Positions 39,318-63,404 of a stretch of 64,000 bases of DNA are shown one piece after another; position 1 is the first letter of the stretch; each line of letters opens with the position of its first letter. Below the pieces are notes generated by a model. The model was not told the DNA's origin. It was given only the letters and a program-made list of their open reading frames with translations, and did no database searches. This DNA comes from Antribacter soli (lineage in GTDB: Bacteria > Actinomycetota > Actinomycetes > Actinomycetales > Cellulomonadaceae), in contig NZ_JAKGSG010000056.1 of the NCBI RefSeq assembly GCF_021568775.1, positions 1-64,000 of the forward strand, in the 5' to 3' direction. The position numbers and the translations under genes are program-made.

Positions 39318-40742
39318 ATGAGTCGTACCCGTCCCGCCACCCGCTTCGCCGTGGCGGCGCTGACCGGGCTCGCGCTGCTCGCCCCCGCCGTCCCGGCCGC
39401 CGCGGGCGCAGCCACCAGAACCAGCACCAGCGCCACCGCCGCCACACCCGCCACCGCCCCCGAACCCGCCTCTGGCGGCATCAGCGTCACCGGCGAGACC
39501 TCGCCGATCCACGACCCGGCCCTGATCGTCGACGACGAGGACGGCACCTGGTACGTCTACTCGACCGGCCTGCTCAACCGCGAGAACGGCGGCACCGTCC
39601 AGATCTGGGCCTCGCACGACGAGGGCACCACCTGGGCCTACGAGGGCACGGTCTGGGACCGGATCCCGGCATGGATCGACGCGCACTTCGCTGACGGCGA
39701 CCTGCCGGGCAACCTGTGGGCGCCGGAGATCTACGAGCACGACGGCACCTACTACCTGTACTACTCGGCGAGCCGTTTCGGCACCAACAACTCGGTGACC
39801 GCCCTGGCGACCAACACGACGCTGGACCCGGACGACCCCGACTACGAGTGGGTCGACCAGGGTCCGGTGGTCACGTCGCCGAACCCGATCGAGAACGGCA
39901 AGACGTTCAACGCGATCGACGCCGGCATCGTCGAGGACGCCGACGGCACGCCGTACATGGCGATCGGCTCCTTCTGGTACGGCATCTTCCTCGTCGAGCT
40001 CGAGTGGCCGAGCGGCAAGCTCGCCCCCGATGCCCTCGCGAACGCCACGCACCTCGTGGACCGCTTCATGTGGGGCAACCCGGTCGAGGCGCCGTACATC
40101 TACTCCCACGACGGCTGGTACTACCTGTTCGTCTCGTTCGACTTCTGCTGCCAGGGCGCGAACAGCACCTACAAGGTCGCGGTGGGCCGCTCGCGGAGCA
40201 TCACCGGCCCGTACCTCGACAAGGACGGCAACAACATGTTCGGTGGTGGCGGCACGGTCATCCTCCAGTCGCACGGTGGGATGGTGGGCACCGGCGGCCA
40301 GTCCGTGTACGACGACGTCCTCGCCTTCCACTACTACGACGCCCTGAACGAGCAGATCCCGTACTTCCCGACACTCGGCCTGCACCGCCTCGCGTGGGAG
40401 GACGGCTGGCCCGTCGTCGACCAGACGGTCGACCCGGCGACGCTCACGACGGCGCCGCAGGCCGCGAGCGTCCCCGCCGGCCGCACCGCGAGGTTCACGG
40501 CGGTCGCGGAGGGCACGCCTCTCCCGGTCATCACCTGGGAGGTGTCCGACGACGGCGGCGCCACCTGGCACGCCCCCGCGGGCGGGCAGCCGGTGACGAG
40601 CCCGGACGGCACGTCGACCCTGACGCTCGTCCGCGTCAACCCGCTGCACGACGGCCTGCTCGTGCGCGCGACGGCGAGCAACGCCCACGGCCACGAGACG
40701 AGCGAGCCGGCCACGCTGACGGTGACCCGAGGCCGCCCGTAG
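39318..40742 (+). CDS. Secreted GH43 enzyme, arabinan endo-1,5-alpha-L-arabinosidase-like, with Ig-like domain
   Basis: A 474-residue exported enzyme. A signal peptide (residues 1-31) and Thr/Ala-rich linker precede a five-bladed GH43 propeller. SPIHDPALIVDDEDG carries the catalytic base Asp, TFNAIDAGIVEDADG the pKa-modulating Asp, and WGNPVEAPYIY the acid Glu. The conserved FVSFDFCCQG matches endo-arabinanases. Residues about 375-474 are an Ig-like domain (TTAPQAASVPAGRTARFTAVAEGTPLPVITWEVS). It should trim arabinan side chains of pectin. Confidence 0.88.
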   Translation: MSRTRPATRFAVAALTGLALLAPAVPAAAGAATRTSTSATAATPATAPEPASGGISVTGETSPIHDPALIVDDEDGTWYVYSTGLLNRENGGTVQIWASHDEGTTWAYEGTVWDRIPAWIDAHFADGDLPGNLWAPEIYEHDGTYYLYYSASRFGTNNSVTALATNTTLDPDDPDYEWVDQGPVVTSPNPIENGKTFNAIDAGIVEDADGTPYMAIGSFWYGIFLVELEWPSGKLAPDALANATHLVDRFMWGNPVEAPYIYSHDGWYYLFVSFDFCCQGANSTYKVAVGRSRSITGPYLDKDGNNMFGGGGTVILQSHGGMVGTGGQSVYDDVLAFHYYDALNEQIPYFPTLGLHRLAWEDGWPVVDQTVDPATLTTAPQAASVPAGRTARFTAVAEGTPLPVITWEVSDDGGATWHAPAGGQPVTSPDGTSTLTLVRVNPLHDGLLVRATASNAHGHETSEPATLTVTRGRP

Positions 40743-40841: not shown

Positions 40842-42587
40842 TCACACGCAGGGCGATCCCTCGTCCCACGCGCCCTTGACGTCGGCGCCCGGGCGGGACC
40901 CGAGCGTCCACCACAGCGCGGTGTGGTTGACCCCCGCGCGGGAGACCACGTCGCCCTTGAAGTAGGCGGTCCCGGCGGACCAGGCCGGGCCGCACGCGGC
41001 CGGTGCGGGCGCCGGCGTGACCGTGCCCGTCGGCTGCCACGGGCCGAACGAGGCACCGGGCTCCTGGTTGCGGGTCCACCACTTCGCGGCGTACTCGACG
41101 CCGTCGTGCGTCACGACGTCGCCCTTGGTGTACACGCCGGCGGCGTACCAGGGGTCGGAGGCGTCGGCAGCGACGAGCGGGCCCGGCGTCGAGAGGCGCA
41201 GGGTGTCGGCGAGCGCCGAGCCGAGCTCGTTCTCGTGGTCCCCGGTGATGTCCCAGAAGAACGCGCCACCGTAGCCGCTGGTCGCGACCCACTCGGCCTT
41301 GTCCGTCACGGAGCGGGGCGTGTCGAGGCTCCACCACTCGTTGCCGTCCCAGCGGTACGCGGCGCCGGCGGTCTCGTCGTAGTACTCCTCCCCGACGGAA
41401 CGCAGGAGGTTGTAATTGCGGGTGCCGATCGGGGCGCCCGCGGCGGCGCCCGGCGTCGGGTCGGTCACGCCGGACCAGCCTTGCCCGTACGCGGCGAGGC
41501 CGAGGTTGATCTGGTCGTCGCGGTAGCCGGCGGCCCGGTAGGCGCCGAGGAGGTCGTCCGCGGCAAGACCCCAGTTGGCCCACGAGCCGGGCGTGTCGGG
41601 CCACTCGTACTTGTGCAGGTTGCCCTGGTGACCGGTCCGGTCCGCGACCCAGGTGCCGTGGTAGTCGTAGCCCTGGACGTTGAGGAAGTCGATCACGGCG
41701 GACAGGCGCGGGTTGACCCAGCCGCCGTTGGTCCGCGGCCACCAGCCGGCCGGCGCGAAGCCGGTGAGCAGGTAGTCCTCGCCGGTCTCGGCGCCCACGG
41801 CGTCGAGCCGCGCACGGAGCAGCTCCATGAACGCGAGGAAGTTCTCCTGGTCCTCCTCGGGGCGCGGGCTCGGGTGCTCGCCGTCGGCCCCCGGCCACTC
41901 CCAGTCGATGTCGATGCCGTCGAAGATCCCGGCCGCGACGCCCTCGCCGCCCTGCGCGCCGTACACCGGCAGGTTGCCGCGGATGTACAGGTCGATGCAC
42001 GACTCGACGAGGCGGGCCCGGCTCTCGGGCGTGGCGACGGCGTCGGAGTAGTTGTCCGACCAGGTCCAGCCGCCGATCGAGATGAGGATCTTCAGCTCCG
42101 GCGCGACGGCCTTGAGCTCGCGGAGCTGGTTGAAGTTGCCGGCCAGCGCCTGGCCGGCGGTGTCACCGACCCCGTCGACGGAGTCCTCCGCGGCCACGAG
42201 GTGCAGGTAGTCGGCGTCGGGGTCGCCGTCGATGCCCTCCGGGCCCACGGTGTCGGCGATGTCGCACACCAGGTCGCTGGTGATGTTGCCGAAGGCGTAG
42301 TTGAGGTGCGTCAGGTCGGAGACGGCACCGGTGCGGACGAGGTCCGCGACCTGGTAGTCGCCGCCCGGCGGCACCCAGGCCGGGAAGTAGCCGACAGCGT
42401 TGTAACCGTTGATGCCGTCGGGGTCCGGCGCGACGGTGCCCGAGGACGTCCCGGGCGCCTTCTGGGGCGCGGCTGCGGTCGCGCTCAACGCGGCGGGGCC
42501 GAGGGTGAGGGTCACGATGAGGCCTGCGGCGGCTGAGCCTTGGAGGATGCCGCGGAGTCGTCGGCGATCTGATTGCTGCTCGGACAT
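40842..42587 (-). CDS. Secreted GH18 chitinase with two C-terminal chitin-binding (CBM5/12) domains
   Basis: A 581-residue exported chitinase. The signal peptide covers residues 1-35. The GH18 barrel runs from about 55 to 470, with LKILISIGGWTWSDNYSDA and the catalytic DGIDIDWEWPG (last Glu is the acid). YDYHGTW and GQGWSGV are further barrel motifs. Two CBM5/12 modules follow: WYAAGVYTKGDVVTHDGVEY...WWTRNQEPG and WSAGTAYFKGDVVSRAGVNH...WWTLGSRPG. It degrades chitin outside the cell. Confidence 0.94.
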   Translation of the reverse strand: MSEQQSDRRRLRGILQGSAAAGLIVTLTLGPAALSATAAAPQKAPGTSSGTVAPDPDGINGYNAVGYFPAWVPPGGDYQVADLVRTGAVSDLTHLNYAFGNITSDLVCDIADTVGPEGIDGDPDADYLHLVAAEDSVDGVGDTAGQALAGNFNQLRELKAVAPELKILISIGGWTWSDNYSDAVATPESRARLVESCIDLYIRGNLPVYGAQGGEGVAAGIFDGIDIDWEWPGADGEHPSPRPEEDQENFLAFMELLRARLDAVGAETGEDYLLTGFAPAGWWPRTNGGWVNPRLSAVIDFLNVQGYDYHGTWVADRTGHQGNLHKYEWPDTPGSWANWGLAADDLLGAYRAAGYRDDQINLGLAAYGQGWSGVTDPTPGAAAGAPIGTRNYNLLRSVGEEYYDETAGAAYRWDGNEWWSLDTPRSVTDKAEWVATSGYGGAFFWDITGDHENELGSALADTLRLSTPGPLVAADASDPWYAAGVYTKGDVVTHDGVEYAAKWWTRNQEPGASFGPWQPTGTVTPAPAPAACGPAWSAGTAYFKGDVVSRAGVNHTALWWTLGSRPGADVKGAWDEGSPCV

Positions 42588-46096: not shown

Positions 46097-47545
46097 TCAG
46101 TAGACGTACGGCCAGCCCTCGGAGTCGTAGGCGAGCAGGTTGATGCCGAGCAGGGCCGTGCCGGCGTCGTTGTAGTAGTGGTAGAAGAGCACGTCGGCGT
46201 CAGTGTCCGCGAGGACGGCCTGGTGGCCGGTCCCGTGGAACGACCCGTGTCCGGCGAGGACCTCCGTGCCGCCGCCCGACGTCATCGCGACGCCGTTCCG
46301 GTCCGCGTACGGGCCGTTGACCGAGGTGGAGCGGCCGACCATCGTGCGGTACGTGCTGCTGGCACCCTGGCAGCAGGCGTCGAAGGACACGAACAGGTAG
46401 TAGTAGCCGTTGCGGTAGTGGATCGTCGGCGCCTCGATCGCGCCGCCGCCGCGGCCGGCGATGCTCGAGAACGACGAGCCGGAGCGCAGGCCTGTGGACG
46501 AGTCGATGCGGATCATCTTGATGCCCGACCAGAAGGAGCCGAGGCTCAGCCACCAGGCGCCCGACTGGTCGATCACCAGGTTCGGGTCGATGGCGTTCCA
46601 GTCGTCCGAGGTGGTCGACGCGATGACGAGCCCCTGGTTGGTCCAGCTTCCCGCCGCACCCGTCGTGCTCGTCGCGAGGAAGATCGCCGAGCTGTTCGAC
46701 CCGAACGTCGAGGCCGAGTAGTACATGTAGTACTTCCCGTTCGCGTACGTGATATCGGGCGCCCAGACGGTGTTGCTGTTGTTCGTGTAGCCGTAGACCC
46801 AGGACATGCCGTTCGGGAAGGCCACCCCGGCGCTGCTCCACGCGGTGCGGTCGGTCGACGTCTTGAGCGTGATGTTGTCGCCCGTGTGCGCCAGGAGGTA
46901 CGTGCCGTCCGGCTTCTTCACCACCTCGGGGTCGTGCACGGTGGTGACCCCGGAGACGACGCCGGGGTTCGGGTAGGTCACCGTGGCGACTCGGATCATC
47001 TGCCACTGCTGGTTGTCGGCGTTGGTGTCGGTGAACTGCGAGACGCGCCCGCCGTCGGCCGTGGACCACTCCCACACCTCGAGCGCCTTGCCGCTGTTGC
47101 GGTTCAGGAGCTGGACGTAGCCGGTCGCCACGTCCTGGACGCTGAACTGCTGGTTGGTCCCGTTGTTGTCGGCCCACTGCACGACGTTGGCGCCGTCGGC
47201 CGTCGACTTGCCCGAGATGTCGATGACCTTGCCGCTGTTCCGCGACTGCAGGCGGTAATAGCCGCTGCCCGAGCTGACGAACCGCCACTGCTGCCAGGCG
47301 CCGTTGTTGCGGCTCCACTGGTCGATGGCGGCGCCGTCCGCCGTGGATCGGTCGAAGACGTCGAGCGCCTTGCCGCTGTTGCGGTTCACCAGCACGTACC
47401 AGGCGTTGGTGTCGATGGTGGCGGCCGCAGCCGGGGCGACCGACACCGGGGCCACCAGCTGAGCGAAGGTGACGGCGACGACGGCGAGCAGCGTCAGTGC
47501 TGCCCGGATGCCGCGTCGCCAGGGGAAATCACGCGTTGCTTCCAT
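46097..47545 (-). CDS. Secreted GH43 enzyme with N-terminal ricin-type (CBM13) lectin domain
   Basis: A 482-residue exported enzyme. The signal peptide covers residues 1-42. A ricin-type trefoil lies at about 45-180, with three similar repeats each built on NRNSGK(A/V)(L/I) and ending in a Gln-x-Trp/Phe motif (QQWRF, NQQFSV, QQWQM). The GH43 domain follows: TTVHDPEVVKKPDG (base Asp), DWNAIDPNLVIDQ (second Asp), IEAPTIHYR (acid Glu) and FVSFDACCQG, as in endo-arabinanases. Unlike the 39318 gene the binding domain comes first. A perfect LacI-like operator precedes the gene. Confidence 0.9.
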   Translation of the reverse strand: MEATRDFPWRRGIRAALTLLAVVAVTFAQLVAPVSVAPAAAATIDTNAWYVLVNRNSGKALDVFDRSTADGAAIDQWSRNNGAWQQWRFVSSGSGYYRLQSRNSGKVIDISGKSTADGANVVQWADNNGTNQQFSVQDVATGYVQLLNRNSGKALEVWEWSTADGGRVSQFTDTNADNQQWQMIRVATVTYPNPGVVSGVTTVHDPEVVKKPDGTYLLAHTGDNITLKTSTDRTAWSSAGVAFPNGMSWVYGYTNNSNTVWAPDITYANGKYYMYYSASTFGSNSSAIFLATSTTGAAGSWTNQGLVIASTTSDDWNAIDPNLVIDQSGAWWLSLGSFWSGIKMIRIDSSTGLRSGSSFSSIAGRGGGAIEAPTIHYRNGYYYLFVSFDACCQGASSTYRTMVGRSTSVNGPYADRNGVAMTSGGGTEVLAGHGSFHGTGHQAVLADTDADVLFYHYYNDAGTALLGINLLAYDSEGWPYVY

Positions 47546-47566
47546 GGAACCTCCTCGTCGAGGTGA

Positions 47567-47582
47567 ATGTGAGCGCTCACAT
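47567..47582. promoter_or_regulatory. LacI-family operator palindrome upstream of the ricin-GH43 gene
   Basis: ATGTGAGCGCTCACAT is a perfect 16-base palindrome 22 bases upstream of the start codon, between start and likely promoter. It has the central CG and the TGTGAGCGCTCACA form of LacI/CebR-type sites. Sugar-dependent repression is likely; the regulator gene is not in the window. Confidence 0.7.
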
Positions 47583-47693
47583 GAGCGGGCCAAGTTTCCA
47601 TCGTTGTAGAGCCGGGCGTCAAGGGGTGATTCCCGGGCGCCGCCGGGACGGCCACGCCCGGGGCCGCCGTCCCGCTGGAAGTACGCTCGACGC

Positions 47694-48569
47694 GTGCAGC
47701 CCACCCCGCGCCCCACCACCTGGCATCCGGAACCCGTCGAGGTGGCCCTCACCACGATGGACGACGCCGTGCGTGTGCTCGCAGGCCTGCGCATCACGGC
47801 GCTGACCGGCGCGGGGGTCTCCACGGACTCCGGCATCCCCGACTACCGCGGCCCCGACTCGCCCCCGCGCAACCCGATGACGTACCAGCAGTTCGTGCAG
47901 GACGAGGCGTTCCGCCGGCACTACTGGGCACGCAACCACGTGGGCTGGCAGCACATGCACCGCACCCACCCCAACGCCGGCCACCGCGCCCTCGTGCGCC
48001 TCGAGGAACGCGGGCTGCTCGCCGGGATCGTCACGCAGAACGTGGACCTCCTGCACGAGGACGCTGGCTCCCGGAACGTGATCGACCTGCACGGACGCTA
48101 CGACCGCGTCGTGTGCCTGCAGTGCCGGCGCGTCGTGTCCCGCGAGCACCTCGCCGAGCGGCTGACCGCGCTCAACCCCGGGTTCCTCGAGTCCGTCGCG
48201 AACGACGTCGCGGACATCGAGATCGCGCCCGACGCCGACGCCGTCATCGAGGCGACCTCCCACTTCCGGCCCGCGCCGTGCGAGTTCTGCGGCGGCGTCC
48301 TCAAGCCAGAGATCGTGTACTTCGGCGAGAACGTGCCTCGCGCGCGGGTCGAGGCCGCGTTCGCGCTCGTCGATGACGGCGACGCGCTCCTCGTGGCCGG
48401 CTCGTCGCTGACCGTCATGAGCGGGCTGCGCTTCGTCCGGCACGCCGCTCGGGCGGGCAAGCCGGTCGTGATCGTCAACCGCGGCATCACGCGCGGCGAC
48501 GTCCACGCGACGGTCAAGGTCGACGCCGGGACGAGCGAGGTGCTGGCGCAGCTCGCGGACCTGCTCTGA
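47694..48569 (+). CDS. Sirtuin-type NAD-dependent protein deacetylase
   Basis: A 291-residue deacylase. NAD-binding motifs GAGVSTDSGIPDYRG, TQNVDLLH and GSSLTVMSG are intact, with the catalytic His in DLHGRY. The zinc module has CLQC and CEFC pairs separated by a 55-residue insert, longer than in E. coli CobB. GTG at 47694 is used. It removes acyl groups from lysines using NAD, possibly controlling acyl-CoA metabolism. It stands alone on the plus strand. Confidence 0.92.
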   Translation: MQPTPRPTTWHPEPVEVALTTMDDAVRVLAGLRITALTGAGVSTDSGIPDYRGPDSPPRNPMTYQQFVQDEAFRRHYWARNHVGWQHMHRTHPNAGHRALVRLEERGLLAGIVTQNVDLLHEDAGSRNVIDLHGRYDRVVCLQCRRVVSREHLAERLTALNPGFLESVANDVADIEIAPDADAVIEATSHFRPAPCEFCGGVLKPEIVYFGENVPRARVEAAFALVDDGDALLVAGSSLTVMSGLRFVRHAARAGKPVVIVNRGITRGDVHATVKVDAGTSEVLAQLADLL

Positions 48570-52114: not shown

Positions 52115-52750
52115 ATGCGCCTGCACGTCGCCGACCACCCGCTGGTGGCCCACAAGCTGACCATCCTGCGTGACGAGCGCACCGACTCCCCGACGTTCCG
52201 TCGTCTCGTCGACGAGCTCGTCACGCTCCTTGCCTACGAGGCGACGCGGGACGTGCAGGTCGAGCCGCACGAGGTGCGCACCCCGGTCACCACCACGACG
52301 GGCGTTCGCATGACGTCGCCCCGGCCGCTGGTCGTGCCGATCCTGCGCGCGGGCCTCGGCATGCTCGACGGTATGACGCGCCTGCTGCCGACGGCGGAGG
52401 TCGGCTTCCTCGGCCTGCAGCGCGACGAGAAGACCTTCCAGGCCGTCACGTACGCGAACCGCCTGCCCGAGGACCTGACCGGCCGCCACGTGTTCCTGCT
52501 CGACCCGATGCTCGCCACGGGCGGCACGCTCGTCGCCGCCATCGACTACGTCTTCGCGCGGGGGGCGCGCGAGGTCACCGCCGTGTGCCTGCTCGCGGCG
52601 CCGGAGGGCCTGAGGGTCGTCGACGACGCGGTCGGCGACCGGGTCGACGTGCAGGTCGTCGTCGCCGCCGTGGACGAGCGCCTCAACGAGAAGGCGTACA
52701 TCGTGCCCGGCCTCGGCGATGCAGGCGACCGCCTCTACGGCGTCGTCTGA
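52115..52750 (+). CDS. upp: Uracil phosphoribosyltransferase
   Basis: A 211-residue salvage enzyme making UMP from uracil and PRPP. Family motifs: [45 protein letters not shown] (PRPP site) and [18 protein letters not shown] at the C-terminus. The start is ATG 52115. It complements the UraA-like permease at 6120. The stop is followed by a 12-base near-duplication before the convergent sigma gene. Confidence 0.96.
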
Positions 52751-52769: not shown

Positions 52770-55700
52770 CTAGGACGTGGGCTCGCACTCGGCGAACCAC
52801 TCGAACGGCGACCAGCCGGAGCGGGGGCCGCCGCGGCTCGCGGCGGTCTCGCCGCGGCCCCCGGCTGACACCGCGCCGCACTGCTGCGAGGTCCCGAACA
52901 GGCCGGCCCACCAGGCCGCCGCCGGGGAGGTATCGCCGGAGTCGGCGGCGACGTCGCTGGTCCCGGTGGAGGTCCCGGACTCGTCCGCCACGTTCTCGAT
53001 GGGCGCGGGCGGGCAGTAGATCCCGGGCACGTCGTGGGTCTGCTCGACCGTCCACGCCGTTCCCTCGAGGACCCGGCTGAGCCGCACCGTCACGTGGCTG
53101 CCCGCCGACGCGGCCAGCGGCCGGTCGAGCACGAGCTGCGCGGTGCCGCCGGCCGGCACCTCCTTCGCGGGCCCCTCACCCTCGGTGATCCCAGAGCCAC
53201 GGACGAGCCAGCCCGACCACGTGATCCCACCGGGGTTCTGCAGGTCCGCGAAGACCTGGACGTGACCGTCCACGCACTGCACGCCCGCCGTCACGACCAT
53301 GTCCTGCGGCCACGAGACCTGCGCGCACGACTCGAAGCCGACCATGAGGGTGGCCAGCGGCCGGCCGTCGGCCCGGACGTCCACCGTGCCCGTCCCCCAC
53401 GGCACCGTGACCACGAGGACGTCCTTGTGGCCGCCACGGACCAGGACGGACACACCCGCGGCCTCGAACACCACGGGGAGCGTCGAGTCACGGTTGTCGA
53501 CCGGAACGCGGAAGGTCCGCTCGGAGGTGCCCGCGGTGTCGTCGAACTGGCAGGCGTCCTCCCACTGCAGGTCGCCCACCTGCGGCGCGATCACGGCCCC
53601 GTTGTAGGCGGCGGACGGACCGGCAGCCACGGAGGCGGCGGCGGGCGCGTCACCGTCGGAGTCCACCGTCCAGCGGGACAGGCGGAACGTCACGTCGCCG
53701 GGGTGGAGCCGGGTCTGCCCGGTGGCCACCGACGTCGTGACCGTGGCACCTGCCTCGACCCGCAGCGGCTGCGACTCGAGGCGCGTCCCGTCGACCACGA
53801 TCTCCATGGTGGCCTGCAACGGCTCGCCGGTCGTGTTGGTCAACGTCCCCTCGACGGCGACGGTGCCGCCCTCGTTGACGGTCCGGGCGCTCGCGTTCGC
53901 CGTCCACGCCGGGTCGTAGCAGTCCTGCGCCCCGTACCAGCCGGCGGGCACGCGGGTCGAGAAGGTGCGTTCGTCCACCACCGCCGAGAGCACGTACGTA
54001 CCCTCACCGGCGGGCAGTCGCAGGCCGTCATGGAGGATCAGCGGCGCCTGCTCGCCGGGCGCGAGATAGTGCACCGTCGCGTTGCCGCTGCCCGCGGCCT
54101 CGAGGCGGACCGAGACCGTCTGGCCCGTCGTGTTCGTGTAGGTGCCCTGCACGACGGCGTCCGCCGTACCGACTCCACCCCTGGCGAGGCACTGGGTCAC
54201 CACGGCTCCGGCACCGGCTGCCGCGCCCGCCCAGGCGGACGCCACGGACAGCGTGGCCGAGCCCGACAGCACCTTCGAGGACCCCGGCAGCACCGGCAGC
54301 ACGCTCGCGGAGGCCGAGGAGGTGCCGGCCTCCGCGGTCGGCGTCGTCCCGTCCGCGAGAACCGTCAGCGGCAGGGTGCGCCACGCGCCGGCAGCGAGCG
54401 GGGTCGACCCGGCGGCAGAGCCGGCGACCGGTGCGCACGACCAGTCGTTCGCGGCGGTGACATCGACCGCCGCGCAGGACAGGATCGACTGCGCCGACGC
54501 GGGTGCGACGCCGGCGGGCAGCGTCACGATCACGGACCAGCCGGGCTCGGCGGCGACGTCCCCGGTGTTGCCCACCTCGATGGGCAGGGAGCCGGAGCCC
54601 GGGTTCGCGAGATGCAGGGACCCAGCCGTGGCAGACAGCTCCGGCCCGAACGCGGCGACGCTGCGCGCCGGGAGCTCCACCGACGCGGGCGTGACGCCCT
54701 CCGCCCACACCTCGGCCCCGATCGCGTACGCGCCGCCGGCTTCCGCCTTCACGCCCACGACGACATGCTGCTGCGTGCCGCCGGCGACCGTGCCGAGGGA
54801 GCAGAGCACCGTGCGGCCGCCGTCGTTCGTGGCGGGCGTGCACGCGAGCGGGTCCGCCGTCGTGGGCGGGCCGAGGATCACCGAGGGGCCCGCCGTCGTG
54901 CCGGACGCCGTCCCGGCCTCGGTCTCCGTGTCGCCCGTGGCGAGCGACGAACCGTCCGCGACGGTGCCCGTGCCGGCGCCGAACGGCGCCTCGTCGAACG
55001 ACGCCGTGAGGCCGTCGGGCAGCGTCAGGCGCACGAAGGTCCCGGTCGCGTCGCCGCCGGTGTTGGACACCGACAGGACGACGTCCTGCGGTGTGCGCGG
55101 CTCCAGCACGACCGCCGGGTCGGCGTACCCGAGACCGATCTCCGGGGGCTCCGGCGGCAGGAGCGTCGTGAGCGGAGCGAGCAGGTTCGAGGGCGACGAC
55201 GGGTCGAGGTAGCCGGGCAGCGGGTTGCCCTGCGCCCACCGCTCGGTGGACATCGTCACGGCCGCGCCGGCCGCGTCCGAGACGCCCGCACCCGCAGTGG
55301 GGGCGAGGACCTGGAGGATCGCGGCGACACCGACGGTCGCGGCCGTGATCACGCCTGCGGCGGCCGCGCCGCCGGACATCACGGTCACGCCCGCGGCACC
55401 GGCAACGACCGCGCCCGTGCCGGTCGCGGCGGCGGCACCGGTGGTCGCGGCGGCGGCGCCGGTCGTGGCTGTGGCGACGGACGCGCTCGCGCCGGCGGAC
55501 GCCGTCGTGCCCGCCGCCGTCGTGCCCGCCGCCGTCGTGCCCGCCGCCGTCGAGGTCGCCGCCGACGAGCTGATCGCCGTGCTCCCCGCGGTGGTCGTGG
55601 CGCCCGCCGAGAGCGTGCCCGAGGGCGCGAGCGTCGCCGTCGTGCCCGCGCCGCCGGCCGCGGACGAGGCCGCGCCGACCTTCGCGAAGCCCGCCGCCGC

Positions 55701-56549
55701 CGAGGCGGCCGTGCCGGCCTTGGCGGCACCGACGGCCAGGCCGCCGACCGGGAGCGCGGTGCCCACCAGGCCCAGCGCCGCGACGCCGAGCATCAGGGGC
55801 GCGATGACGCACTTCATGCCGTGCGCGACGTCGTGCAGCTCCAGCACGAGGTCGCTGCACGTGCTGCAGCCCGCCGTGTGCTCCTCCACCTTGACCGTCT
55901 CGCGCTTCGACAGGCTGCCGCGCACGTACTCGCCCAGCCGCGCGTTCACGTCGCGGCACGCCTCCGACGGCGCATGGGTGAGGTGCTGCTGCAGGTAGCC
56001 GTCCCGCAGGGCGGACTTTGCCCGGTAGATCAGGGCTGAGACGCCGTTCGGGTTGAGCCCGAGGATCGGCGCGATCTGCGCCGGCTTCTGCTCCTCCACG
56101 AGCGCATACCGCAGGACGAGCTTGAAGCGCTCGGGCAGGCGGTCGTACGCCTGGTACACGATGGTCTGCTCGAAGCCCTTGAGGGCGGGGTCGTCCTCGT
56201 CGGCGAAGCGGCCGAGCGCGAACTCCAGCTCGTCGTCCGTGGACGGACGCGTGCGGCGGGCGCCACGGTGCAGGTTGTAGGCCGTGTGCCGCACGGTCTG
56301 GTAGACGTAGCCGCGGAAGTCGAGGTCAGGTCCCTTGCCGCTCAGCAGCGCCTGGAGCGTTCCCTCGTAGGCGCTCTGCACGATCTCTTCGGCGTCCGAC
56401 GGCGAGACGAGGCAGCGGGCGAATCGCAGCGTCGCGGACATGTGACGCTCATAGAGCAGGCCAAAGGCCTGCCGGTCGCCCTCGCGGACCTTCAGAATGA
56501 GCTCAGCATCGCTCGGGGCGTCCCCGGCTGAGCCGTCCACAAACGTCAC
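52770..56549 (-). CDS. ECF sigma factor fused to an anti-sigma-like zinc finger, membrane segments and a long surface region
   Basis: A 1259-residue single protein. Sigma region 2 is at about 14-95 (RFARCLVSPSDAEEIVQSAYEG, FRGYVYQTVRHTAYNLHRG) and region 4 at about 135-188 (RLPERFKLVLRYALVEEQ, LNPNGVSALIYRAKSALRDG). Residues about 196-245 form a zinc-finger anti-sigma-type helix with HTAGCSTC (H-x3-C-x2-C). A membrane segment (IAPLMLGVAALGLVGTALPVGG) follows, an Ala/Thr/Gly-rich run to about 390, another hydrophobic segment (VITAATVGVAAILQV), and then about 830 residues of Ig-like/CARDB-like beta domains with scattered cysteines. No stop breaks the frame. It looks like a one-protein surface-to-promoter switch. 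Confidence 0.88.
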   Translation of the reverse strand: MTFVDGSAGDAPSDAELILKVREGDRQAFGLLYERHMSATLRFARCLVSPSDAEEIVQSAYEGTLQALLSGKGPDLDFRGYVYQTVRHTAYNLHRGARRTRPSTDDELEFALGRFADEDDPALKGFEQTIVYQAYDRLPERFKLVLRYALVEEQKPAQIAPILGLNPNGVSALIYRAKSALRDGYLQQHLTHAPSEACRDVNARLGEYVRGSLSKRETVKVEEHTAGCSTCSDLVLELHDVAHGMKCVIAPLMLGVAALGLVGTALPVGGLAVGAAKAGTAASAAAGFAKVGAASSAAGGAGTTATLAPSGTLSAGATTTAGSTAISSSAATSTAAGTTAAGTTAAGTTASAGASASVATATTGAAAATTGAAAATGTGAVVAGAAGVTVMSGGAAAAGVITAATVGVAAILQVLAPTAGAGVSDAAGAAVTMSTERWAQGNPLPGYLDPSSPSNLLAPLTTLLPPEPPEIGLGYADPAVVLEPRTPQDVVLSVSNTGGDATGTFVRLTLPDGLTASFDEAPFGAGTGTVADGSSLATGDTETEAGTASGTTAGPSVILGPPTTADPLACTPATNDGGRTVLCSLGTVAGGTQQHVVVGVKAEAGGAYAIGAEVWAEGVTPASVELPARSVAAFGPELSATAGSLHLANPGSGSLPIEVGNTGDVAAEPGWSVIVTLPAGVAPASAQSILSCAAVDVTAANDWSCAPVAGSAAGSTPLAAGAWRTLPLTVLADGTTPTAEAGTSSASASVLPVLPGSSKVLSGSATLSVASAWAGAAAGAGAVVTQCLARGGVGTADAVVQGTYTNTTGQTVSVRLEAAGSGNATVHYLAPGEQAPLILHDGLRLPAGEGTYVLSAVVDERTFSTRVPAGWYGAQDCYDPAWTANASARTVNEGGTVAVEGTLTNTTGEPLQATMEIVVDGTRLESQPLRVEAGATVTTSVATGQTRLHPGDVTFRLSRWTVDSDGDAPAAASVAAGPSAAYNGAVIAPQVGDLQWEDACQFDDTAGTSERTFRVPVDNRDSTLPVVFEAAGVSVLVRGGHKDVLVVTVPWGTGTVDVRADGRPLATLMVGFESCAQVSWPQDMVVTAGVQCVDGHVQVFADLQNPGGITWSGWLVRGSGITEGEGPAKEVPAGGTAQLVLDRPLAASAGSHVTVRLSRVLEGTAWTVEQTHDVPGIYCPPAPIENVADESGTSTGTSDVAADSGDTSPAAAWWAGLFGTSQQCGAVSAGGRGETAASRGGPRSGWSPFEWFAECEPTS

Positions 56550-56769
56550 GATTCCCCAAATCCTCGCCGAACCGGCGACGGACCGCGCCCACAGGCCAGT
56601 GGCTTTGGCCCCCCCAGACCCTAGGACCGACTATAGGGCCCCCCTGCAAGTTTCGTGGAGGGTGAATCCACCGGATGAGATTCCCGGTGACCGGATGAGA
56701 TTCGGGTGAACTAGCACCCGATGTGGCCGAACGTGCGTCATGATGTATATCCGTGGGGGTCCTGTCATC

Positions 56770-57537
56770 ATGAGCAAACCGCAGCAGGAAGCCGAAGCGC
56801 GCATCTCCGATGTGCGCGAGCGCTGGCGTGCAGCGAGCCTCGCGAGCGTCTGGATCCGCCCCGGCGACTGGTACCACGCCGCTGTCGACGCTTTCGTCGA
56901 AGCGCTTACAGACGAGCGCCCCGTGGCTGCGGTCGGGGAGCGGCTCGGCATCGCGAGAGCGGCCGTCGGCGTCGGCCTCTCCGAGGCCATCGATGACGTC
57001 GCCTGCCTCTACATGACGATGCGCCTGCCCGTGGACGCCGCGGCGATCCGCGCCGTCGCGCTGGGCTGGCTCGAGGAGCACGAGCGCGTCCCGTTCCAGG
57101 TCTCGAGCCACGACCCCTCGACGGGCCTACCCACCGGCGACTACCTGGGCGAACGACTCAGGGAGACCTACGGCGTCGCGGTGCGGACACGCACCGACGC
57201 GCGGTCGACGCACTGCCTGCTCGTCCTCGACGTCGGGCTCGACAACCTCGACACGTGGCAGCGCCTCGCGCGGTCGGCGGCGATCGGCAGGACGCTGCAC
57301 CAGGTCTTCGGCGAGGGGCACCCGATGGCGGCCGTCGGAGACGGCACGTTCGTCGTGCTGTGCGAGCGGGGGCCGGCCACCGCTCAGCTCGGCCAGGCGC
57401 TGCGCCGCGTGGTCGAACGGAATGCCGAGGTGCTCGGCCTCACCGCCGAGCTGCGCAGGCCGACGCGCGTCTGGATCGAGCGGCTGCCCGAGACCCACGA
57501 CGACGCGCTGATGCTCCTGAACCACCTGAGCCGCTGA
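56770..57537 (+). CDS. Regulatory protein with a degenerate GGDEF-like domain
   Basis: A 255-residue cytoplasmic protein from ATG 56770. The N-terminal 120 residues are helical (WRAASLASVWIRPGDWYHAAVDAF). After DPSTGLPTGDYLGERLRETYG, the usual entry to a GGDEF domain, come HCLLVLDVGLDNLDTWQ and VFGEGHPMAAVGDGTFVVLCE, where the GGDEF active loop is replaced by VGDGT. It is therefore probably not a cyclase but a binding or sensing domain. Divergent from the giant sigma-factor gene (220 bases apart); they may share control. Confidence 0.7.
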   Translation: MSKPQQEAEARISDVRERWRAASLASVWIRPGDWYHAAVDAFVEALTDERPVAAVGERLGIARAAVGVGLSEAIDDVACLYMTMRLPVDAAAIRAVALGWLEEHERVPFQVSSHDPSTGLPTGDYLGERLRETYGVAVRTRTDARSTHCLLVLDVGLDNLDTWQRLARSAAIGRTLHQVFGEGHPMAAVGDGTFVVLCERGPATAQLGQALRRVVERNAEVLGLTAELRRPTRVWIERLPETHDDALMLLNHLSR

Positions 57538-62474: not shown

Positions 62475-63404
62475 TCACACCAGTTCGACACTGTCGGCCT
62501 GCGGTCCCCGGTCACTCTGACGCACCTTGAAGCGGACCCGATCACCCTCCTCCAGGACCTCGGCGCCCCGCACGACCGACACGTGCACGAACAGGTCCGC
62601 GCCCCCGGCATCGGGGGTGATGAAGCCGAAGCCGCGCTCCGCGTCGTAGCGCGCGACGGTGCCCTCACCTCCGCGCACGGGCCCGCCGGATGCCGCGGGA
62701 CGGCTCGACCGACCGCGGTCCGTGGCCGCGCGCGCACTCCCGGAGCCGTGCACGAGCTGCACGTTGCGGGCATTCGGCCCCTTGTCGCCGTCGACGACGT
62801 CATACGTCACGCGTGCACCCTCGGAGAGCTCGGTCAACCCCGAGCCGAGCGCACTGACGTGGACGAAGACGTCCTCGCCACCCGAGTCGGGAGCGACGAA
62901 CCCGAAGCCCTTGATGTCGTCGTACCAGGACACCGTGCCGTCCGCGCCGTCGGATGCCGGCCGTGCAGCCTCCGCCCCGAGCGGTAGCAGGTGGTCCGCC
63001 TGCGGCCCCTTCTCCCCGTCGACGACGAGAAACGCCACCCGCTGCCCCTCCGAGATCACACCGCCCCCGACGATGGCCGAGCTGTGCACGAAGATTTCGA
63101 CGCGACCGCCGTCGGGCGTGACAAAGCCGTATCCCTTGGCCGGCTCGTACCAGGTGACGGTGCCGAGCACGCCCACGGGCGCGTCGGCGGCCCGGTCGCC
63201 CGTGACACGGACGCGGCGCGCCTGCGGGCCACGGTCACCCTCGCCCACCTCGAACTCGACGACCTGCCCCTCGCGGAGAAGCCTCGGTCCGTCGTCGCCG
63301 ACGATCTCGGACGCATGGACGAACAGGTCCTCGGCCTCGTTCCCGAGGTCGATGAAGCCGAACCCTCGGTCGGCGTCGAACCATCGGACAGTTCCCTGGG
63401 GCAC
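62475..63404 (-). CDS. Protein with four tandem cold-shock domains
   Basis: A 309-residue protein made of four CSD units: about 1-67 ([26 protein letters not shown]), 80-145 ([26 protein letters not shown]), 155-225 ([26 protein letters not shown]) and 247-309 ([26 protein letters not shown]). RNP1 and RNP2 are kept in all. A linker rich in Ser, Arg and Gly lies before the last unit. Single CSDs of 67 residues are the bacterial rule, so this is a multi-site RNA or single-strand DNA binder. Function unknown. Confidence 0.9.

Follow-up and report, generated by a model that had tools for sequence, protein, structure and literature searches.

A single-chain ECF sigma factor of Antribacter soli with a zinc-finger anti-sigma segment and a predicted Ig-like ectodomain, its divergent GGDEF-like partner gene, and a conserved promoter-like element

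The window considered here, a 64,000-nucleotide stretch of Antribacter soli DNA (NCBI RefSeq assembly GCF_021568775.1, contig NZ_JAKGSG010000056.1, positions 1 to 64,000 of the forward strand), carries at 52770..56549 on the minus strand a gene whose 1259-residue product joins an extracytoplasmic function (ECF) sigma factor, a zinc-finger anti-sigma (ZAS) segment, two hydrophobic stretches and a long outer part in one polypeptide. Divergent from it lies a partner gene with GGDEF-like features, preceded by a conserved promoter-like element. The sigma-gene frame opens with GTG at 56549 and reaches its stop at 52770 with no internal stop, and its third-position GC content is 0.91–0.97 throughout; stops are present when the same interval is read in frame 1 of the plus strand. 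An open reading frame of 1001 amino acids on that opposite strand (53034-56039, +) is interpreted as arising from the high GC content.

The long protein is conserved at full length. A scan of genome contigs retrieved 12 related loci, 11 of Promicromonospora and one of Antribacter gilvus, and at 11 of the 12 the complete protein lies in a single frame (the other, L019 in our numbering of loci, reaches a contig end), with 43–54% identity to the window protein across its full length in the 12-row alignment. The frame at the A. gilvus locus has 1365 codons, and an equal frame is present in another genome of the window's genus. Full-profile matches (E ≤ 0.001) were obtained in 116 of 121 genomes of the family, covering 25 of 25 genera; 110 of these matches have E values of 2e-46 or better, and the other six, weak at 1e-8 to 1.7e-4, may be ordinary sigma factors. 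All 20 family representatives that were fetched, from 18 genera, have single frames (785–2164 codons from stop to stop), and in the wider order the N-terminal profile at 1e-15 matched 68 of 198 genomes, mostly in frames of 500–1600 codons. An earlier reading of the window, made by a model from the letters alone (the sequence-only reading), had proposed this unbroken fusion and had named a sequencing error that joins two genes, or a lack of full-length homologues, as grounds for abandoning it. A two-gene join or frameshift is rejected, given the one frame in 11 of 12 loci and the uniformly high third-position GC content, and full-length homologues exist.

Comparative counts refer, unless another sample is given, to 52 proteins: the 12 rows of the first alignment, the 20 family representatives and 20 from 19 chosen loci, two of the 52 being a tandem pair from the window's own genome. 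In 33 the divergent partner gene is adjacent (partner-linked) and 19 are partner-less; L010, which contains runs of N, was excluded from the second and third alignments. In a tree of 50 of the 52 rows (L010 and L081 dropped) the partner-linked sigma factors cluster, with 4 changes and none of 500 shuffles as low, and they form no single clean clade, three partner-less paralogues nesting among them. The tandem proteins of the window's own genome (L072, C54; 4192-5895 and 6079-7650, both on the minus strand) have a region-4-like part, the ZAS motif and hydrophobic stretches and were not matched by region 2 when the genome was searched; they are possible diverged relatives.

Sigma region 2 occupies residues 32–100 (56250..56456, minus strand; Pfam PF04542, 28.4 bits against a cut-off of 24, and 34.5 bits in the search of its own genome, where region 2 has 26 matches). 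Region 4, at residues 131–181 (56007..56159, minus strand), scores 21.7 bits with PF08281 (Sigma70_r4_2), below the cut-off of 25.7; the NCBIfam model TIGR02937 (sigma70-ECF) covers residues 28–183, region 4 included, at 59.4 bits against a cut-off of 42.9. By this family model the protein is an ECF sigma factor, predicted to bind core RNA polymerase and to drive transcription. The ZAS segment follows at residues 198–231 (55857..55958, minus strand; PF13490, zf-HC2, 33 bits, cut-off 22.2) and contains the motif C198-x25-H224-x3-C228-x2-C231, in which C198 is the likely fourth ligand. Of the 52 proteins, 51 contain a motif of the type C-x22-28-H-x3-C-x2-C, the first gap being exactly 25 residues in 50 of them, and by its zinc motif the window protein falls into the putative class I (ZAS) anti-sigma type. 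An AlphaFold model of the N-terminal part, poor overall (mean predicted local distance difference test score, pLDDT, 47.5), shows three helices at 196–245 in the ZAS region. Regions 2 and 4 and the H-x3-C-x2-C segment had all been pointed out by the sequence-only reading, and its remark that no separate anti-sigma gene lies nearby holds for the zf-HC2 kind, whose sole match on the 64.8-kb contig lies inside the sigma frame; other kinds of anti-sigma factor were not searched for. Over ten relatives, residues 1–430 are 56–62% identical as against 40–51% for the ectodomain, the better conservation of the N-terminal part that is expected if the sigma factor is active.

Two hydrophobic stretches follow the ZAS segment, the membrane-like stretches of the earlier reading. 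Stretch 1 (residues 248–266; 55752..55808, minus strand) has a Kyte-Doolittle (KD) mean of 2.19 and is, with some uncertainty, not a full span; stretch 2 (residues 398–416; 55302..55358, minus strand; KD mean 2.03) is the probable membrane span. Between them runs an almost chargeless Ala/Gly/Thr linker (residues 267–397; 55359..55751, minus strand) that is probably cytoplasmic, and the nearly uncharged block from the start of stretch 1 through stretch 2 measures 79–264 residues in 31 of 32 motif-bearing proteins. A KD mean of at least 1.6 is reached by stretch 2 in 51 of the 52 proteins and by stretch 1 in 45 (1.86 in L057). Across the set, the 25 residues past stretch 2 hold 184 acidic and 32 basic residues, the first charge beyond it being acidic in 48 of 52 proteins, and the 25 residues preceding it hold 23 basic and 3 acidic. 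About 840 residues lie past stretch 2 in the window protein. The topology favoured on these sequence features is a single span at stretch 2 with the N-terminus inside and the outer array outside, stretch 1 probably being part of the ZAS segment or lying on the membrane.

The outer part is predicted to be a string of immunoglobulin (Ig)-like domains of the DUF11/CARDB type, about 720 residues long (residues 466–1182; 53004..55154, minus strand). An AlphaFold model of a 761-residue ectodomain from 11 rows is all-beta, with a mean pLDDT of 78.5 and a predicted template modelling score (pTM) of 0.42, so that the arrangement of the domains is uncertain. In Foldseek, the top rows for this model come from ciliary and complement-type chains of Ig-like domains, at low template modelling scores, and VIA-align matched integrin legs (254 residues aligned, Z 12.3, root-mean-square deviation 8.8) and cohesins (122 residues aligned, Z 9.9, root-mean-square deviation 3.8; model residues 209–347, protein residues 633–771); the integrin and cohesin alignments are read as reflecting a common Ig-like or beta-sandwich arrangement only. 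Pfam, at E ≤ 1, matched DUF11 in 7 of the 11 aligned proteins, with 8.4e-5 as the best value, and CARDB in 5, the window protein itself giving neither; among 10 wider relatives, DUF11 exceeds its cut-off in four, namely L052, L063, L068 and L070. A search of the PDB with the ectodomain profile, up to E 1, returned no sequence relative. All 12 rows of the first alignment share ten ectodomain cysteines (570/583, 692/705, 787/877, 1000/1075 and 1092/1179). Cysteines after stretch 2 are even-numbered in 35 of the 37 proteins having any (15 of the 52 have none) and in 32 of the 33 partner-linked proteins, with an odd number in one, as extracellular disulphide pairs would give; these parity counts come from related sequences and are not independent. 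The acidic flank and the even cysteine numbers both fit an array that lies outside. In the partner-linked proteins the outer part ranges from 305 to 1731 residues and the whole protein from 677 to 2149 amino acids.

The sequence-only reading had seen a beta-rich, presumably exported region that resembled no carbohydrate-binding fold it could name. Export is favoured by the same indirect indicators, against the non-exporting topology that it had listed as a way to be wrong, and a named carbohydrate-binding fold was rejected, no carbohydrate-binding Pfam family matching the window protein at E ≤ 1; its picture of a region without an identifiable fold gives way to the predicted Ig-like array, and its two membrane-like stretches, although both hydrophobic, could not both cross the membrane if the Ig domains lie outside. 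A weak match to NPCBM_assoc, an associated domain of Ig-like type and not a binding module itself, was seen in 3 of the 11 aligned proteins, the best at 0.19, and this family exceeds its cut-off in L069; the ectodomain may bind carbohydrate despite the missing Pfam module.

The divergent partner gene (56770..57537, plus strand) encodes 255 amino acids from a conserved start at 56770, although its open reading frame can begin at 56740. Its product resembles a GGDEF domain in degenerate form: GGDEF_2 was matched in 2 of 15 partner proteins (best 5.7e-4) and GGDEF in 2 of 15 (best 0.26), the partner profile reaches the GGDEF structure 7e6g at 4.8e-4, and a GDGxF signature is seen by eye; the window's own partner matches neither GGDEF_2 nor GGDEF and does not qualify as an intact GGDEF protein. 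The order dnaK-grpE-cbpA (names assigned by eye), divergent gene, sigma gene is kept in 12 of the 12 first-scan loci, and upp, for uracil phosphoribosyltransferase (52115..52750, plus strand), is a conserved convergent neighbour in all 11 that reach that far. Among the 40 loci L052-L091 the divergent gene was matched in 21, comprising 19 of the 20 family representatives and two others. Linkage of the partner to the sigma gene is obligate: the partner was found (E ≤ 1e-8) in 29 of the 198 genomes of the order and divergently adjoins the sigma gene in 29 of 29 (positions compared by eye), and the remaining 39 genomes that the N-terminal profile matches gave no match to it.

A promoter-like element, GCGTCA-N19-TCCTGTC in the window (56735..56766, plus strand), begins 35 bp upstream of the partner ATG; in many other genera its second half is TCTCATC. 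The heptamer ATGACGC, which is GCGTCAT when read towards the partner, occurs in the upstream stretches of 20 of 24 loci and in at most 9 in five single-base shuffles (each stretch also takes in the first 20 bases of coding sequence). With the frame checked, 32 of 34 loci have GCGTCA upstream of the partner start codon, at 35 bp in 22 and at 36 bp in 10, and 19 bases further on TCTCAT is present in 13 of 17 loci outside the window's wider group, with a one-base variant in the other four. Such spacing fits the −35/−10 pair of a leaderless transcript. At L060 the partner promoter has GCGGAAT in place of GCGTCAT, an altered −35 half that can be compared with region 4 of that locus's sigma factor. 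Repeats of the GGRTGA/GGGTGAA type are seen by eye upstream of the element (window 56670-56720, L009, L058, L064, L097, L098, L112) and are possibly an activator site. Facing the sigma gene itself, CTATAGTC (56629..56636, minus strand) is invariant in 13 aligned loci, and TTCACCC is invariant too; we take CTATAGTC to be a candidate −10 element of the sigma gene.

Beyond the locus, GCGTCA-N19-TCTCAT gave 27 matches in 16 family genomes, most of them selected for a partner promoter in which the consensus was already visible, and 0 for the reversed control. A separate control, made by hand with each half reversed, also gave 0 (its own built-in reverse control gave 2, both in one genome). Thirteen of the 27 are partner promoters, the source of the pattern, and are therefore not independent; the other 14 are. 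Eight of these precede genes for small GerE-type proteins (75–89 amino acids, all eight above the GerE cut-off), two precede genes for EAL proteins, two for HATPase_c_2 proteins, and two have no assignment. The stricter GCGTCAY-N18-TCTCATC gave 16 matches in 8 of 40 further genomes and 0 in the control: six before partner genes, two before genes for LRV/HEAT-like proteins (one tested), two for NIT-domain sensors (one tested), two for tandem proteins with a twin-arginine-like signal (by eye), and four without assignment. Sorted by kind of genome, the stricter pattern matched in 7 of 15 that carry the partner outside the family and in 1 of 14 that lack it. The GerE homologue of the window genome (77% identical) likewise has GCGTCAT upstream, with TCCTACC 19 bases past GCGTCA. 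The tandem proteins with twin-arginine-like signals (L131/L137, G229:C3), each preceded by GCGTCAT-N18-TCTCATC and without a Pfam match, are possible surface targets. A promoter search had been suggested by the sequence-only reading, upstream of surface genes and of the sigma gene itself; a conserved promoter-like element was indeed found, but it faces the divergent neighbour and not the sigma gene.

These features suggest an envelope-spanning ECF switch contained in a single polypeptide, released by proteolysis and feeding the partner through GCGTCA/TCTCATC, a reading to which we give about an even chance of being right. The sequence-only reading had likewise proposed a surface sensor that controls its sigma domain in cis, perhaps through proteolysis; the on-board ZAS segment and the probably exported outer part support it, and cleavage stays a prediction. 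In such a switch the sigma domain would be silenced at the inner face of the membrane by its own ZAS segment and joined to the span by the flexible, near-chargeless linker, and outside, a disulphide-bearing, Ig-like DUF11-type stalk would extend into or through the wall, where it might sense contact, wall state or tension. An external change would lead to cleavage outside and then within the span, after which the cytoplasmic piece would be trimmed; the freed sigma factor would turn on a small regulon through GCGTCA as −35 and TCTCATC as −10. The first target would be the divergent GGDEF-like partner, made from a leaderless transcript, joined in many species by a small GerE regulator and by some EAL, ATPase or envelope genes.

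Several observations weigh against the proposed switch. The N-terminal model (mean pLDDT 47.5) is too poor to bear on the predicted docking of the ZAS segment between sigma2 and sigma4 or on the topology of stretch 1. Stretch 1 equals stretch 2 in hydrophobicity in the window protein, both KD means being near 2, and reaches 1.6 in 33 of 33 partner-linked proteins versus 12 of 19 others, which is what one would see if both stretches spanned the membrane and the Ala/Thr linker lay outside. A basic residue lies within 25 residues before stretch 2 in just 12 of 52 proteins and after it in 27 of 52, so the positive-inside rule helps only weakly. Two spans, however, would return the Ig domains to the cytoplasm, at odds with the even cysteine numbers, the DUF11/Ig-type domains and the acidic flank past stretch 2, and four partner-less proteins (L076, L078, L080, L083) carry charges within stretch 1 but retain stretch 2; we consider a two-span topology unlikely. 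A little less unlikely, though still improbable, is a tether that is never cut, in which the span transmits a conformational change that loosens the ZAS segment and the sigma factor acts while anchored: the nearly uncharged block of 79–264 residues could let it reach the polymerase, and ECF41 and ECF238 are described as switched by conformation without cutting (PMC8999054), but the same review expects actinobacterial ECF factors with a ZAS segment and a span to be freed by proteolysis (PMC8999054), and a truncated SCO4117 still acts (PMC5826349). That the protein is mainly a structural surface protein with a relic sigma part seems very improbable; the outer part does make up most of its mass and region 4 does fall under the Pfam cut-off, but conservation is highest in the N-terminal part, and the neighbouring promoter-like element is conserved as well.

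At the promoter, the points on the same adverse side are that the −35 half is missing at 2 of 34 loci (L054 and L060), that the −10 half has diverged in the window (TCCTGTC) and in the nearest genera (TCCTGT, TCCCTT and similar), that the exact consensus was found in 0 of 11 genomes of the window's wider group, that the pattern loosened by one mismatch gives 5 matches in the window versus 5.08 in shuffles and is not enriched, and that no exact copy of the element was seen facing the sigma gene, the autoregulation usual for ECF factors not being apparent. The element might instead be served by another sigma factor, the window's sigma factor controlling other genes. The 26 region-2 matches in the window genome provide candidates for that role, and copies of the element also stand in front of regulator genes at a distance from the sigma gene. 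Yet its most constant site adjoins the sigma gene, the partner is never found without the sigma gene among the 198 genomes, and partner-bearing genomes outside the family had matches in 7 of 15 cases, partner-less ones in 1 of 14; this alternative is possible but clearly falls short of an even chance. Use of GCGTCA/TCTCATC by the window's own sigma factor, as the proposed switch would have it, is suggested by these comparisons of sequence.

RsgI-type anti-sigma factors of clostridia are comparable in being membrane anti-sigma factors with a large outer sensing part, but differ in that the sigma factor, of the sigma-I type, is encoded by a separate gene. The principle of an ECF factor inhibited in cis is known and its plan has been published, as the sequence-only reading had hinted in recalling actinobacterial groups with C-terminal extensions: these are ECF48, ECF52 and ECF53 (PMC8999054; PMC5826349), which have C-terminal fusions, a zinc finger, one to two spans, extensions of up to about 400 residues and an expected proteolytic activation (PMC8999054). 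ECF48 and ECF53 share with the window protein the fusion, the zinc finger, the span or spans and the expected proteolysis; compared by description, their extensions of up to about 400 residues contrast with about 1070 here (PMC8999054). SCO4117 of Streptomyces coelicolor, an ECF52 sigma factor with a carbohydrate-binding module, likewise carries its sigma domain, zinc finger, membrane segment and extracytoplasmic part on a single chain; activation by release has been proposed for it, and a form stripped of module, membrane part and zinc finger was still able to modulate development (PMC5826349). SCO4117 has a proline-rich stretch and the module and lies downstream of atrA, and its motif is given as CSGYN-17-SRHA (PMC5826349), whereas the window protein has the Ala/Gly/Thr linker and the DUF11/CARDB-type Ig arrays, lies beside a GGDEF-like divergent partner and upp, and has GCGTCA-N19-TCTCATC as its candidate motif. 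Of the ECF52 features, the window protein has the zinc finger and membrane segment; Pfam at E ≤ 1 shows no carbohydrate-binding module, and inspection alone shows, in place of a proline-rich stretch between span and module, the Ala/Gly/Thr linker ahead of the span and a short Pro-containing stretch after it. In IutY of Pseudomonas putida, sigma and anti-sigma are also fused in one chain and release by regulated intramembrane proteolysis is reported, but that system serves iron-starvation surface signalling in a Gram-negative organism, and the accessible part of the review mentions no Ig array for it (PMC8999054). No description of the DUF11/Ig array, the obligate partner or the promoter-like element turned up in the open-licence literature, in searches that did not use the letters of the motif.

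Elsewhere in the window, a 309-amino-acid protein with four cold-shock (CSD) stretches is encoded at 62475-63404 (minus strand) and is 94% identical in Antribacter. A cluster for secreted polysaccharide enzymes comprises genes at 39318-40742 (plus strand), 40842-42587 (minus strand) and 46097-47836 (minus strand), its members being GH43-like and chitinase-like (by eye) proteins and a GH43 protein with two ricin-lectin stretches.

Bacteria usually need several proteins to answer an event beyond the wall with transcription; here one chain seems to combine sensor, anchor, brake and transcription factor. Tentatively, and with rather less confidence than we place in the switch itself, the family may be a new ECF lineage in which one polypeptide makes up the entire pathway from outside to promoter, with an Ig stalk of 305–1731 residues as sensor, a ZAS brake, a leaderless promoter and a GGDEF/GerE/EAL module as output. 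Comparison across genomes points to a candidate target promoter and a partner, which makes the pathway testable in Promicromonospora or related strains, and the natural series of stalk lengths lets one ask whether length or force matters. If the proposal is true, a stalk of species-tuned length would be a sensor of wall contact or tension.

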